DNA of 42,728 nucleotides from Microcoleus sp. GA_180221_E-2-1-MAG-45_12 (GTDB lineage Bacteria > Cyanobacteriota > Cyanobacteriia > Cyanobacteriales > JAAUUE01). Of the stretch, positions 24,180 to 37,906 are shown piece after piece. Each line of letters starts with the position of its first letter. Position 1 is the stretch's first letter. The position numbers were made by a program, and so were the translations under genes. Under the pieces are notes generated by a model. That model saw nothing but the letters and a program-made list of their open reading frames with translations. It was not told where the DNA came from and did no database searches. Location of the stretch: assembly GCA_020692245.1 (NCBI GenBank), contig JAIMKT010000005.1, positions 43,945 to 86,672 on the forward strand, written 5' to 3'.

Positions 24180-26192
<2,013 letters not shown>

Positions 26193-30970: not shown

Positions 30971-31011
30971 CTGATAACTGAGTAACTGTTCACTGTTCCC
31001 TGATAACTGTT
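30971..31011. repeat. Heptamer cluster overlapping the end of the fusion gene
   Basis: Heptamers of the form nnnnCTG (ATAACTG, TTCACTG, TTCCCTG, ATAACTG) run through this segment with one 8-base interruption. They are the same class as the arrays near cobO. On the minus strand they are read as the last codons and the stop codon of the PlsY/PEP-synthase-like gene. Confidence 0.8.
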
Positions 31012-34007
31012 TCCACAATTCCCCGTGTGCCATCAAGGCGGACTTGCTGCCCATCCCGTAAGAGTTGCATGGCTTGACTCACATCCATCACCGCCGGAAT
31101 TTGGTACTCTCTGGCAATAATGGCTCCGTGGGACAACCTGCCGCCGACTTCGGCAATAATCCCACCAGCACGGGAAAGAGCGATCGACCAGCCAGAATCC
31201 GTGTAGGGAACTACCAAAATAGTCTCTTTATCAATTCCCTGAGCATCGGTTAATCTGCGAAGAATTTTAATCTTACCAATTTTTATCCCCGGACTAGCGG
31301 CAATCCCTTGGAGAAATTTCCCCTGAATCGGTGGGGCGATCGAGCTTAGGGGTGGATTATTGCCAAAGACCAGAGATGGAATATTTTCAAGAGATTGATC
31401 TGTTTGGAATTGGATTTTTCTTTGGGTAATTAATTGAGAAATTTGACTTTTTATCTCAGAATTAGGTTCAGTAATTAGTTCTTGTATCTCCGAAAATTCT
31501 AAATAGAAAATATCTCCGTTAGTATCTAGTAATTCACTAGCAAGCCACAGGTCTTCTAAATGCAGAAATTGATATCTTAATTGAGCTAATAGTTGACTAT
31601 AAATAGTTGTTACTCGCCCTTTAAGCTGGAGTCTTTTTTGAACTTGTTTTTGTTGCCAACTAAGGGATTTAGGCATAGTTAGCGATTGCTGGGCAGGAGT
31701 TTGTAGAAATTGCTGAAACATTGCTTGTAAGGGTTGGGGAGATTCTTGCCATGTGGCGATCGAGATATCTGTACCGACTTCGCTGAGATAGCCGTAGGTT
31801 TGCAGCCATTGTTGAAACTGGGTAAGCACTTCCTGCCCTACAGGATTAGTAGCTAAATAATTAAATAATTCCTCTGGATTTAGTTGCAACACTTCCGGCG
31901 GTAATTGATTTCTGGCTCGATCGGCAATGATGGAGAGCGATCGCACCGCCCCGATTTCTGGGGTAGAACTATTATCTAATTCGCCTTCGGGAACTTTGAA
32001 TAAACCCTGTCTGATGGCAAAACTCAAGGGGGAAAAAATACTGTAATAGGTAGCTTTTTTGAGAGTTGCTAAAATCCGATTAATTCTCTCTAAAATCTCC
32101 TGTGGTTCTTGGGGAATATCACTTGCCAACTCCTGAAGAATCGGTGCAAAATACTGGCGATCGTCCCGCTCAAAATCCTTAGCTAATTGCAATTCTCGCT
32201 GACCCAAACGCAGTAATCCGGGTAGACTTTGCAGGGTAGAACTCAAGGGCGGCTTACTAAATTTTGCACCTCTAGTAAGAAACTCTAAACTTTCTGGTGG
32301 TAGCCCCATTCTCAGGAAAATATTCCCCAAGAGCGTAGCATTAAAATAGGCGTGGGCATTATGGAGTGTTGCCGTAGCCGTGAAATCTAAATCCTGAGCT
32401 TTTTCACCGAGGACGATCGAGAAAATTTCTCCCCACACCCCACAGGTCAAAGGGCGATTAATAGACCAAGGCAGGGGACGAATGGCTCCCGGAATCACCT
32501 CAGCAGCGATTTTTCTTGTCCAGATGGGCAGCAGGGTCGTGATGGGGCGGGATTGCAACACCCAAAGCTGGTGTCCGTCATAGGTCCATTCCACATCTTG
32601 GGGGATCCCATGGTAGGTGGCTTCAATTTTCCTGACTAGGTAAGCAACTTGCTGGATTAACTGTTCTGGCACATCACTGGAACGATCGGGTTGAGCATTA
32701 ATCACGGTCAGGTCTAAATCTTCAGGTAAACGCCAATCAGTACTGGCTTCTAGGTCAAGATTATTAACTAAAACTTGATATCTTTCAGGAGTAAACTGCC
32801 CAGAGACAACCCCTGTGGCACTCCCCGGCAGGGCTTCGATCGCCACTCCTTCCCCCGCCAGAGGATCCCGACTAAAGGCAACCCCAGAGAACACTCCAGC
32901 AATTTGTTTCTGGATTAACACAGCCATGCCCAGATCAGCATCGGAATTAGTTTCTGAATTAGTCCCTGAATTAGTATTTGAATCATTAGCAGAGTTGGAA
33001 GACTTGAGAGATCGATCGAGACGATAACGCACTGCCCCCGGTCGCTGATAGCTGGCTAAACAATCAATAATCGCCTGTTGCAACTGGAGCTTACTCCCCA
33101 CACCTAAAACGCTCAAGTACTGCCCCGCTGCCGTCGCTGTTTCTGTGTCTTCCCCCCGTGCCGAGGAACGCACTGCCAAAGGCTGATCACTACTGGGTTG
33201 GAGGTAATTAATCAATACATCTATGTCATCTCCCGGCAACAAAATCCAGCCCTCTGGTACCGGATAGCCTGCTTGACACAATTGCGCCAAATTCGCTGCC
33301 TTACTGCCGACTTTAGCCCCAAGGAGTTGCTGAGAATTCCTCGCTTGATCGACACCAAGGGTATGCAGGGTCATGATTCCCTGTTCGCCCCGAAAGAAAT
33401 TAAACATAGGTCTTGAGTCCGATCGCCCCTGATCCGCAGGTAAATTTAAATCATCTGGAATTTTAGTATAGATCCAGCCCAGCAGAGAACTAAGCGCCGT
33501 AGCTGCCCCAATTCTAGCGGTTTGAGCAGGATGGAAGAGGGCAAGGAGCAGAGGGAAGAGTACCAACACGCCGTATTTACTGAGAATGCGATCGCGACTC
33601 AGGGTAAACCCTACCCCTGCCATCAAGAAACCAATCCCCGCCACCACCGGATCATGGACAAGGATACCCCACACCACATTCGTCGTCCCAGCTCCCTTAC
33701 TGCCCACATAGCGCCCAAATACCAGAGCAATGAGAGCGATCAATTCCCACACAGAACCCGCCGGAAAAAATAGCCTTGCCAGCAATACCCCAAGGATTCC
33801 CTTCCCCGCCTCGGAGCAGACTGCCAATATCCCCGTCACCTTGCCGCCATGATAAAACGCCGCCGACACCGACTCATTCCCGCCCCCTAAGCGTCGCAAA
33901 TCTTGCCCATGTCTCAGGGAGAAAATCATCTGGACGATCGGTAACGCCCCCAGCAAGGGACAGAGAATGAAAATTAGGAATACTCCCCCCAACTGTGTCA
34001 AGTTCAT
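30990..34007 (-). CDS. PlsY-like membrane domain fused to PEP-synthase/rifampicin-phosphotransferase-like enzyme
   Basis: This is a 1005-residue fusion. Residues about 1-190 have five or six membrane helices and resemble PlsY acylphosphate:glycerol-3-phosphate acyltransferase, but key motifs are altered: RRLGGGNESVSAAFYHGGK replaces the usual GSGNxGATN block, CSEAGKG replaces D-x2-KG, and the GHxFP-type His is not seen. Residues about 215-490 are the ATP-grasp PEP/pyruvate-binding domain (KAANLAQLCQAG, AVRSSARGED, LWVLQSRPIT). Residues about 500-870 resemble the middle domain of rifampicin phosphotransferases. Residues about 900-1005 are the swivelling His domain with H960 in RLSHGAIIARE. The enzyme part should move phosphate from ATP through His960 to a small acceptor; which one is unknown. 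The last codons come from a heptamer repeat. Confidence 0.82.
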   Translation of the reverse strand: MNLTQLGGVFLIFILCPLLGALPIVQMIFSLRHGQDLRRLGGGNESVSAAFYHGGKVTGILAVCSEAGKGILGVLLARLFFPAGSVWELIALIALVFGRYVGSKGAGTTNVVWGILVHDPVVAGIGFLMAGVGFTLSRDRILSKYGVLVLFPLLLALFHPAQTARIGAATALSSLLGWIYTKIPDDLNLPADQGRSDSRPMFNFFRGEQGIMTLHTLGVDQARNSQQLLGAKVGSKAANLAQLCQAGYPVPEGWILLPGDDIDVLINYLQPSSDQPLAVRSSARGEDTETATAAGQYLSVLGVGSKLQLQQAIIDCLASYQRPGAVRYRLDRSLKSSNSANDSNTNSGTNSETNSDADLGMAVLIQKQIAGVFSGVAFSRDPLAGEGVAIEALPGSATGVVSGQFTPERYQVLVNNLDLEASTDWRLPEDLDLTVINAQPDRSSDVPEQLIQQVAYLVRKIEATYHGIPQDVEWTYDGHQLWVLQSRPITTLLPIWTRKIAAEVIPGAIRPLPWSINRPLTCGVWGEIFSIVLGEKAQDLDFTATATLHNAHAYFNATLLGNIFLRMGLPPESLEFLTRGAKFSKPPLSSTLQSLPGLLRLGQRELQLAKDFERDDRQYFAPILQELASDIPQEPQEILERINRILATLKKATYYSIFSPLSFAIRQGLFKVPEGELDNSSTPEIGAVRSLSIIADRARNQLPPEVLQLNPEELFNYLATNPVGQEVLTQFQQWLQTYGYLSEVGTDISIATWQESPQPLQAMFQQFLQTPAQQSLTMPKSLSWQQKQVQKRLQLKGRVTTIYSQLLAQLRYQFLHLEDLWLASELLDTNGDIFYLEFSEIQELITEPNSEIKSQISQLITQRKIQFQTDQSLENIPSLVFGNNPPLSSIAPPIQGKFLQGIAASPGIKIGKIKILRRLTDAQGIDKETILVVPYTDSGWSIALSRAGGIIAEVGGRLSHGAIIAREYQIPAVMDVSQAMQLLRDGQQVRLDGTRGIVETVIREQ

Positions 34008-34689: not shown

Positions 34690-34705
34690 CAATGTGGTGC
34701 AATCC

Positions 34706-35959
34706 ATGAAGATCAACCCTCTGACCCTCAATTTCATCAATCCAGATTTAGAGAAAGAATTCCGCCGCCACTATTTTCAAGTATTTCTCAAACAAATTAG
34801 ATTTGCCCTGATTTTAGCCATTATTGTTTATACAATTCTTGGGCTTGTTGATCTTCAGTTTGCGCCAGATATCAGAGATAAATTATTATTTATTCGTTTT
34901 GGGGTAGTCTTGCCAGTATGTGTCACTATTCTGGGTTTAAGTTTTTCTGCTTACTTCCCCAAGATCATGCAACCATCTATTAGTTTAGCCATTATGGTGG
35001 CGGCGATCGCTGCACCCGTGGTAGCAATTCTCATCCCTGCTCTAGGAGTGAACTACATTGGTTTAACTAGTTTGTTAATGTATAACTACACGGCAATCAA
35101 ACTCAGATTTGTAGCTGCAAGCATTACAGGATTTCTCATTTTTGCAATCTATAATATTCTCGATTTGCTATTTATAAAAACTGATATTGGAAAACTAATT
35201 GAAGTTGATTTTTATTTAGCTGCTACGATCGCTGTAGGGATGTTTGCTTGCTATCAAATGGAATTTTATCTGCGGCAAGATCATGTGAAAAATATTCTGC
35301 TGCGGGAGGAACAAGAAAAGGTTGATAAACTATTACTCAATGTCCTGCCAGCCTCGATCGCTACTCGCCTCAAGGATGGGGATAAAGTCATTGCCGAAAG
35401 TTTTCCTGATGTGACGATTTTGTTTGCCGATTTAGTCAACTTCACCCAATTATCTGCCAACATTTCCCCCGAAGAATTGGTAAATATTCTCAATGAAATT
35501 TTCTCGGAGTTCGATCGCCTCGCTGAGAAACATGGCTTAGAAAAAATTAAGACGATCGGCGATGCTTACATGGTAGTTGGTGGTTTGCCCATTCATCGAG
35601 TAGACCATGCCCAAGCCGTTGCGGATATGGCTCTGGATATGCGCCGAGAAATTCAACGGATTAGTAGTCTAAGTCTTGTCCCCATGAAAATTAGAATCGG
35701 GATCAATACCGGCCCTGTGGTCGCCGGGGTAATTGGGATCAAGAAATTTATCTATGATCTCTGGGGAGATACGGTTAATGTAGCTAGCCGCATGGAATCC
35801 CAAGGCATCCCCGACCAAATCCACGTCACCGCCGAAACCTATCAAGCTCTCCAGCATGGGTATCTCCTCCAAGAGCGTGGTAAAATTCAAGTGAAGGGCA
35901 AGGGGGAAATGCAGACTTATTTATTAATGGATAAAGTCAGTCATCCTATTGTTAGATGA
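34706..35959 (+). CDS. Class III adenylate cyclase with N-terminal membrane domain (first paralogue)
   Basis: This is a cyclase of about 417 residues. The N-terminal half (about residues 30-195) has six hydrophobic segments. The C-terminal half is a class III catalytic domain with the metal-binding ILFADLVNFTQLS, the adenine-selecting lysine in LEKIKTIGDAYMVVGG, and D plus the NxxxR motif in YDLWGDTVNVASRMES, the residue set of adenylate rather than guanylate cyclases. It should make cAMP as a homodimer at the cytoplasmic membrane. The start at ATG 34706 is chosen by alignment with the paralogue at 36587; the GTG at 34694 is in frame. The two paralogues share the same topology. Confidence 0.9.
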   Translation: MKINPLTLNFINPDLEKEFRRHYFQVFLKQIRFALILAIIVYTILGLVDLQFAPDIRDKLLFIRFGVVLPVCVTILGLSFSAYFPKIMQPSISLAIMVAAIAAPVVAILIPALGVNYIGLTSLLMYNYTAIKLRFVAASITGFLIFAIYNILDLLFIKTDIGKLIEVDFYLAATIAVGMFACYQMEFYLRQDHVKNILLREEQEKVDKLLLNVLPASIATRLKDGDKVIAESFPDVTILFADLVNFTQLSANISPEELVNILNEIFSEFDRLAEKHGLEKIKTIGDAYMVVGGLPIHRVDHAQAVADMALDMRREIQRISSLSLVPMKIRIGINTGPVVAGVIGIKKFIYDLWGDTVNVASRMESQGIPDQIHVTAETYQALQHGYLLQERGKIQVKGKGEMQTYLLMDKVSHPIVR

Positions 35960-36586: not shown

Positions 36587-37906
36587 ATGGATATTAATCC
36601 TGTTACTCTAAATTACTGTGATCGTCAACTTGAAGAAAACTTTAGACAAGATTATGCTAAAAAATCAATTAGACAGATAAGATTTGCTATTTTTATGCCG
36701 ATCTTAGTTTATTTCTTGGTAGCAATTCTAAATTACACGGATATAGAAAATGAATTCTCTAGTCGTGAATATATGAATGCTAGTTTGCTTATGGAATTTG
36801 GTATTTTTACCCCACTTTCTCTAGTTATTCTTTTGTTTACCTATAGAAAAAACTTTGCTCAATTGACTCAAACAGCTTTGATAGTTGGAAGCATCGCATC
36901 ATCAATCGGCTTTACGATTATTATTGGCTTAGAAATTTTTCTCAGCAAAGTACCTGTGATTGCAGCTAATTATAACTTCAACTATGATTATATATTAATG
37001 AATATCAATACTGCCTTAGTTCTAGTGACCGTAAATAACTATGCTGCCACAAGACTTCTATTTACTAATGCGATCTTCTCATCTTTACTTACTTTCATTA
37101 TTTATAACATAACATGCTTTTACTTTATTCATCCAACGTCTGTGCGTATCATTATTTCTAGTGACTTTCAACTACTAGTTGCTAATTTAATTGGCGGCTC
37201 TGCTGGCTATTTGATGGAAATTTATTTAAGACGGGATTTTTCTAATAATGCTTTACTGGAGATTGAGCGAGAGAAATCTGAACAATTACTTTTAAACATT
37301 TTGCCTGAGTCGATCGCCTCCCGACTCAAAGAAAGCAATAAGACGATCGCTGATAGCTTTGCCTCTGTAACTATCCTTTTTGCAGATATTGTCGGGTTTA
37401 CAAAATTATCTAGCCAAGTCTCCCCAGTAGAATTAGTAGAACTCCTCAACCAGATATTTTCCGCATTTGATGAGTTGGCAGACAAGCATCAACTAGAAAA
37501 AATCAAAACCATTGGTGATGCCTATATGGTTGTAGGGGGAATTCCAGAACCGAGAGTAGATCATGCGGAAGCGATCGCAGAAATGGCTTTGGATATGCAG
37601 GCGGAAATTTTCAAAATCAGTCAAGAATCTCAACAAGATTTCGCCATTCGGATTGGCATCAATTCTGGAGAAGTCGTAGCGGGAGTGATCGGCAAAAAGA
37701 AATTTATTTATGATCTATGGGGAGATGCGGTGAATACGGCGAGTCGGATGGAATCTCACGGAATTCCCAATACTATTCATGTGACGATCGACACCTATAA
37801 TTTACTAGCTGATAAATATTTATTTGAAGAAAGAGGAATAATTGATGTTAAAGGTAAAGGAGAAATGCAGACTTATATCTTAAAAGATAAATTAGCTATT
37901 AATTAA
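36587..37906 (+). CDS. Class III adenylate cyclase with N-terminal membrane domain (second paralogue)
   Basis: This 439-residue paralogue of the cyclase at 34706 has the same layout: MDINPVTLNY at the start, six hydrophobic segments, then a class III domain with ILFADIVGFTKLS, LEKIKTIGDAYMVVGG and YDLWGDAVNTASRMES. The lysine and aspartate that select adenine are both kept, so it should also make cAMP. The membrane halves are much less alike than the catalytic halves, which suggests different inputs. Its catalytic loop has VGF where the first copy has VNF. It is followed by purK after 37 bases. Confidence 0.9.
   Translation: MDINPVTLNYCDRQLEENFRQDYAKKSIRQIRFAIFMPILVYFLVAILNYTDIENEFSSREYMNASLLMEFGIFTPLSLVILLFTYRKNFAQLTQTALIVGSIASSIGFTIIIGLEIFLSKVPVIAANYNFNYDYILMNINTALVLVTVNNYAATRLLFTNAIFSSLLTFIIYNITCFYFIHPTSVRIIISSDFQLLVANLIGGSAGYLMEIYLRRDFSNNALLEIEREKSEQLLLNILPESIASRLKESNKTIADSFASVTILFADIVGFTKLSSQVSPVELVELLNQIFSAFDELADKHQLEKIKTIGDAYMVVGGIPEPRVDHAEAIAEMALDMQAEIFKISQESQQDFAIRIGINSGEVVAGVIGKKKFIYDLWGDAVNTASRMESHGIPNTIHVTIDTYNLLADKYLFEERGIIDVKGKGEMQTYILKDKLAIN

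Follow-up and report, generated by a model that had tools for sequence, protein, structure and literature searches.

The subject of this work is a gene in a stretch of 42,728 nucleotides (the whole stretch is called the window here) from contig JAIMKT010000005.1 of the cyanobacterium Microcoleus sp. GA_180221_E-2-1-MAG-45_12, a contig that belongs to a 4.21-Mb genome. The gene (30990..34007, minus strand, ATG start) encodes a protein of 1005 amino acids (aa) in which a PlsY-like membrane domain with an altered site is followed by a phosphotransferase with the layout of rifampin phosphotransferase (RPH). Our best explanation, which we hold to be somewhat better than even, is that the protein is a membrane-embedded RPH-type dikinase acting on a lipid substrate, the N-terminal domain being a repurposed PlsY. 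An altered PlsY domain joined to a His-swivelling phosphotransferase had been proposed in an earlier note made from the letters of the window, and the fusion is real: the ORF list and translation give a single intact open reading frame (ORF), in which Pfam resolves three parts, i.e., G3P_acyltransf at residues 16-168 (48.0 bits against a cut-off of 24.1), PPDK_N at 273-492 (136.6 bits), and PEP-utilizers at 926-996 (76.7 bits). The nearest named relative comes from a Coleofasciculaceae (cyanobacterial) metagenome-assembled genome, the best segment being 88% identical. Since the same fusion recurs across the order, it is not a product of chance.

The membrane domain (residues 1-190; 33438..34007, minus strand) has a real PlsY fold, as judged from its predicted structure. 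AlphaFold2 modeling of residues 1-203 with 43 rows gave a pLDDT of 87 and a pTM of 0.85, with predicted helices at 3-21, 47-80, 85-103, 108-118, 120-136, 140-158, and 163-182, the short fourth helix (108-118) included. In the comparison with PlsY that the earlier note had proposed for residues 1-190, the best match was 5xj7 (Z 18.3, 2.5 Å, 178 residues), and among the PDB folds listed by VIA, which the structure matches reported here cover, PlsY chains were the sole strong matches (Z 17.7-18.3 over 176-186 residues), far above the next entry at Z 6.7. Foldseek likewise pointed to PlsY, and hhalign of the fusion family against true PlsY gave a probability of 96.5%.

The PlsY site itself is altered in a consistent way. 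According to the structural part of the PlsY work (PMC5700162), the phosphate of glycerol-3-phosphate is clamped by Ser35, Arg45, Lys104, and Asn180, and its hydroxyl is contacted by Ser142 and His177, while the acyl-phosphate is bound by loop 3 amides and His92, its carbonyl by Thr41, and Asn37 is assigned to the oxyanion as a proposed stabilizer; in aaPlsY, changes of Arg45, His177, and Asn180 mostly cost >90% of the activity. Residue counts below refer to 140 intact family rows unless another sample is named. Motif 1 (residues 41-55; 33843..33887, minus strand), placed by the hhalign register against true PlsY and by these counts, reads GGGNESVSAAFYHGG in the window protein, with LGGGNESVSAAF where PlsY has GSGNxGATN; the family has GTGN[IV]SVSAAFYHGG, or more fully GTGN(I/V)(S/G)VSAAFYHGG. 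The GGGNES noted earlier in place of GSGNxG is thus present, but it is not the family motif: with T at position 42 in 137/140 rows, G there in 2/140, and E at position 45 in 2/140, the alignment marks it as a local variant confined to this genome and the relative closest to it. The other change noted earlier, Glu for Asp before AGKG, holds throughout. The window protein has SEAGKG where PlsY has D-x-x-KG, and E66 replaces the Asp in all 140 rows, making the Asp-to-Glu change a family trait.

On the glycerol-3-phosphate side little of PlsY is left. Ser35 corresponds to Thr42 (137/140), a change within residue type, and Arg45 to Tyr52 (135/140). Lys104 falls by the hhalign register on residue 104 (K 73, R 59, Q 5, G 2, I 1) and by the MAFFT register on Gly107 (140/140). 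No conserved His or Asn was found in the 140 rows within residues 170-190, where PlsY has motif 3 (RHRxNI), so motif 3, with His177 and Asn180, is gone whatever the register; near its place, in the PDDL that ends the membrane domain (residues 184-187; 33447..33458, minus strand), stands the acidic pair Asp185-Asp186, each Asp in 139/140. The acyl-phosphate/oxyanion side appears better kept in the aligned rows: Asn37 is retained as N44 (140/140), Thr41 is replaced by S48 (Ser in 133/140), and the glycines of loop 3 (motif 2, GRY...[KR]GAGTTNVVWG; residues 98-114; 33666..33716, minus strand) are kept together with N110 (140/140), but His92 has become Arg99 in 140/140. As a separate observation, all 14 canonical cyanobacterial PlsY sequences of alignment A4 (locus L001 1462-2094 and 13 further plsY loci) read GSGS, with Ser at the oxyanion position Asn37, where the fusion family has Asn. 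Mean conservation over 38 positions of the site (loop 1, loop 3, E66/K69/G70, and P184-D186) is 0.91, compared with 0.66 for the rest of residues 1-189, and 0/20000 random draws of 38 positions reached 0.91, a contrast that is descriptive because the positions were picked after the alignment was seen. The alignment thus presents the altered site as strongly conserved and apparently under selection.

The dikinase half follows RPH in its order of parts: an ATP-grasp domain (residues 208-492, with K236, R280, and E473; 32532..33386, minus strand), a middle or acceptor domain (493-895; 31323..32531, minus strand), and a C-terminal phosphohistidine swivel domain (896-1000; 31008..31322, minus strand). 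From ATP-grasp to swivel, a profile of 46 rows matched RPH 5fbs without a break (E 3.5e-78), whereas full-length phosphoenolpyruvate (PEP) synthases matched the same profile in two stretches. The ATP-grasp domain, assigned by PPDK_N, matches the RPH ATP domain 5hv6 in VIA (Z 20.9, 2.9 Å, 230 residues), and the swivel, assigned by PEP-utilizers, matches the pyruvate kinase C-domain 2e28 (Z 19.2, 1.7 Å, 109 residues). For mapping we used the functional residues Lys22, Arg117, Thr136, Glu297, His825, and Arg666-Glu667, as named in a section of the RPH paper (PMC4844700). Arg117, Glu297, and His825 correspond to R280, E473, and H960, each in 140/140 rows; Thr136 corresponds to position 299 (S/T in 140/140), and Lys22 to K236 (140/140), an equivalence drawn from the motif. 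His960 (31128..31130, minus strand) is the predicted phosphohistidine by the profile alignment. Arg666-Glu667 fall on positions 801-802, where the alignment is weak and the family has E (119/140) and V (98/140). Conservation over the whole protein peaks at residues 476-525 (mean 0.89-0.94), where the acceptor domain begins, which suggests that all members of the family probably use a single acceptor compound. A low-complexity Asn/Ser/Thr-rich insertion lies in the ATP-grasp domain (window 32937-33008, residues about 334-357); its length differs in the nearest relative, L070, and model confidence is low there.

The earlier note had likened this half to PEP synthase or to RPH, and the second likeness is the one that stands. 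PEP synthase was rejected: Pfam at E values up to 1 gives PPDK_N, PEP-utilizers, and G3P_acyltransf only, with no PEP/pyruvate-binding C-terminal domain, and the His lies near the C-terminus. None of the NCBIfam families reached its own cut-off (best 25 of 33 matches). The genome has a separate PPDK_N protein (822 codons, 416 bits).

The fusion is an old cyanobacterial family. With the window protein as query, 120/386 genomes of the phylum matched at 1e-20, and the matches listed outside the class extended over no more than the swivel or the ATP-grasp part; searching with a divergent member found 336/388 genomes of the order at 1e-60, in 134/149 genera. The fusion queries matched none of the four genomes listed for g5, a genus of small genomes. 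In the genome_contigs scan (best 80 of 583 confirmed matches) all 80 loci have the same architecture, each in one intact ORF, and all are labelled cyanobacterial except one labelled Tatlockia. That contig (L147 1726-4548), filed under Tatlockia of the Legionellaceae, carries a fusion nested among Aliterella in the tree and is probably mis-binned. L048, a relative that belongs to a different class of the phylum, is a dikinase only, with no PlsY part. In genome G215 (L047) the halves lie in separate ORFs; natural gene splitting was rejected here, because the DDLDL linker runs on in another frame, which marks the split as a frameshift, real or from sequencing.

The two halves decay together. Among 148 distinct rows, 140 have intact loops and His960 (139 by four strict markers and one with a trivial A50S), one is the dikinase half of a frameshifted gene, and seven are degenerate. 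Each of the seven shows changes in both halves; across the two-domain rows, loss of one site alone was seen in 0/147. Four of the seven form the f10 clade, in which loop 1 is deleted, loop 3 is changed, the ATP-grasp motif is broken, and the His has become Gln; L044 is a fifth f10 copy with decay. The f10 fusions are full-length (L043 5411-8152, L044 5458-8157, L174 1375-4131, L175 1471-4170, and L176 1471-4368), and by their residues they are apparent double pseudoenzymes in all five genomes whose copy was read; because the degenerate ORFs are full-length, some role may remain. The PlsY loops are changed in L185 together with His to Gln, and in L034 together with a broken ATP-grasp motif, the His being kept. 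The last row (L046 5332-7104, genome G170) is a second, short paralogue of 591 aa with changed PlsY loops and ATP-grasp, no middle acceptor domain, and the swivel His kept. In a quick-method tree of 77 rows, one unrelated ORF among them, the degenerate rows fall into three groups: the f10 clade, the L185/L034 pair, and L046. As far as aligned residues can tell, this joint decay speaks for a single coupled reaction rather than a passive anchor.

The reaction that we infer for a lipid dikinase would begin in the ATP-grasp domain, where by analogy with the family ATP would phosphorylate His960 with release of AMP and inorganic phosphate (Pi). The swivel domain would then deliver the phosphate to an acceptor lodged between the middle and membrane domains. 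The PlsY-like domain, which lacks the glycerol-3-phosphate clamp, would supply the membrane-side substrate site with its acyl-phosphate/oxyanion features (Asn44, Ser48, the glycine-rich loop, and the positively charged Arg99 for His92). With features of the acyl-phosphate side apparently retained and the clamp lost, the most likely substrate is some lipid, or the acyl group of one, distinct from glycerol-3-phosphate; of the two kinds of acceptor suggested in the earlier note, the lipid-related one is possible and is the leading reading.

Two forms of the lipid dikinase can be set out, and the likelihoods given to them are shares of that given to the dikinase as a whole. The first, which we put forward tentatively, is phosphorylation of a membrane alcohol (an isoprenoid, a quinol, or a glycolipid head group), with a PlsY-derived domain that only binds and orients the lipid. 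Hydroxyls are what RPH-type small-molecule dikinases phosphorylate in the accounts we draw on in part (rifampin, PMC4844700; phenolics, PMC12167813), and a lipid groove and a site that faces the cytoplasm are features of the PlsY fold (PMC5700162); retention of the oxyanion Asn is, however, left unexplained by this form alone. The second, a more doubtful one, is a self-charging membrane acyltransferase: phospho-His960 would convert a fatty acid to acyl-phosphate (ATP to AMP + Pi), from which the PlsY-like half would acylate some acceptor, though not glycerol-3-phosphate. It would account for the retained acyl-phosphate/oxyanion side, i.e., S48, the glycine loop, and an N44 that is invariant although canonical cyanobacterial PlsY has Ser. 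The genome has PlsX, which is in its favor, and no match to a FakA-type fatty acid kinase was found in this genome, so that a Fak-type route to acyl-phosphate is not seen, which only leaves room for self-charging. Against it stand its hypothetical acceptor and a conservation that may be structural. To our knowledge, phosphorylation of a carboxylate for acyl transfer is without example in the dikinase family, which also counts against it.

That the PlsY-like domain is merely a membrane anchor or sensor for a phosphotransferase with a soluble substrate, as the earlier note had entertained, we regard as unlikely. The lost glycerol-3-phosphate site would fit such a role, but the altered loops, which an anchor would not need, are the best-conserved part of the membrane domain and decay when the dikinase decays; this favours a working site.

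An ordinary glycerol-3-phosphate acyltransferase joined to an unrelated enzyme is highly improbable. It has the PlsY fold and the weak Pfam match on its side, but the Arg45, His177, and Asn180 equivalents are lost and the separate plsY that the earlier note wanted looked for was found: a canonical plsY lies on another contig of the same genome (175.5 bits, against 52.5 for the window fusion). The earlier note would have taken a kept PlsY active site in a genome with no other plsY as the mark of the ordinary enzyme, and this genome shows neither, so that the reading was rejected as largely refuted. Across 120 genomes of the order, PF02660 has two matches in 98, one in 21, and none in 1, and the second matches listed (32) all lie within ORFs of 972-1024 codons; among the single-match genomes, G417 (71% complete) has the fusion only. 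A rifamycin-type antibiotic inactivating enzyme is scarcely credible and the antibiotic-like acceptor was rejected with it, since, although the dikinase part finds its closest structural relatives in RPH chains, NF041857 (rifamycin phosphotransferase) scores 196.7 bits against a family cut-off of 999, Arg666-Glu667, needed for rifampin transfer, are not kept in the profile alignment, and the gene is near-universal in the order.

Several points weigh against the membrane-embedded lipid dikinase. All support for it is computational, from sequence and predicted structure. The full-length model has a pTM of 0.50, and its domain interface is not reliable. The register of the loop 3 Lys differs by 3 residues between hhalign and MAFFT, and motif 3 of PlsY is not alignable to the fusion with certainty. 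Relaxed selection on the whole protein would give the same joint decay; the decay events number only a few, and the degenerate rows include two sisters. The gene neighborhood (80 loci, 120 genomes) names no lipid substrate.

In the window, the genes flanking the fusion on both sides lie on the opposite strand. The commonest neighbors in the 80 genome_contigs loci are a divergent GDSL/SGNH hydrolase (31/80), a cupin directly downstream (20/80), and a YegS-type lipid kinase (6/80), the first two mostly in heterocyst-forming cyanobacteria, as labelled. The hydrolase occurs in 76/120 genomes of the order, including G386, G405, and G129, for which the fusion-family profile gives only 82-87-bit matches, and it is missing from many genomes with the fusion; the cupin occurs in 22/120. 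Being lineage-confined and showing no co-occurrence with the fusion, the two were dropped as functional evidence. Elsewhere in the window are two class III adenylyl/guanylyl cyclase genes with long N-terminal regions (34694-35959 and 36587-37906, plus strand), separated by one pentapeptide-repeat-like ORF (repeat judged by eye), and a caspase-like (Peptidase_C14) domain fused to an FGE-sulfatase-type domain (24180-26192).

No description of a PlsY-dikinase fusion was found in the open-access literature (PMC full text). Each half taken alone is of a known kind; what open-access text, as far as searched, does not describe is their combination and the altered PlsY site. If the proposed function is right, cyanobacterial membrane biochemistry would have an overlooked component in this gene, which most genomes of a large order retain: its product would be the first PlsY-fold enzyme known to us with another substrate and a membrane-integrated dikinase of the RPH type. 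A self-charging enzyme would further mean that most of this order maintains an acyl-phosphate pathway apart from PlsX/PlsY. Direct tests are within reach through the invariant residues and the naturally occurring double-dead homologues.

Among known systems, FakA/FakB feeding PlsY (PMC9136124) sets the precedent of PlsY being supplied with acyl-phosphate by a kinase, but FakA belongs to another kinase family than the dikinase of the fusion and its type has no match in this genome. PEP synthase and PPDK have the ATP-grasp and swivel domains in common with the fusion, which has its His near the C-terminus and is without the Pfam PEP-binding C-terminal domain. The two-component phenolic dikinases HpeHI, CreHI, and PpsAB, in the portion of PMC12167813 that we draw on, share RPH-type small-molecule dikinase chemistry; they consist of two split proteins acting on aromatic substrates, whereas the fusion is one chain with a membrane domain. 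RPH (5fbs, 5hv1; NF041857) has the same domain order, and equivalents of its Lys22, Arg117, Thr136, Glu297, and His825 are present in the fusion, which differs in not keeping Arg666-Glu667, in scoring far under the family cut-off, and in the added membrane domain. PlsY (PF02660; structures 5xj5-5xj9) shares with the fusion the seven-helix fold with a short fourth helix and the motif positions in loops 1 and 3; Asn37, the hydroxyl at Thr41, and the glycine loop are kept, while Arg45, His177, and Asn180 are lost and His92 is an invariant Arg. Unlike PlsY, the fusion has motifs of its own, GTGN[IV]SVSAAFYHGG...GAGTTNVVWG, and an attached dikinase.

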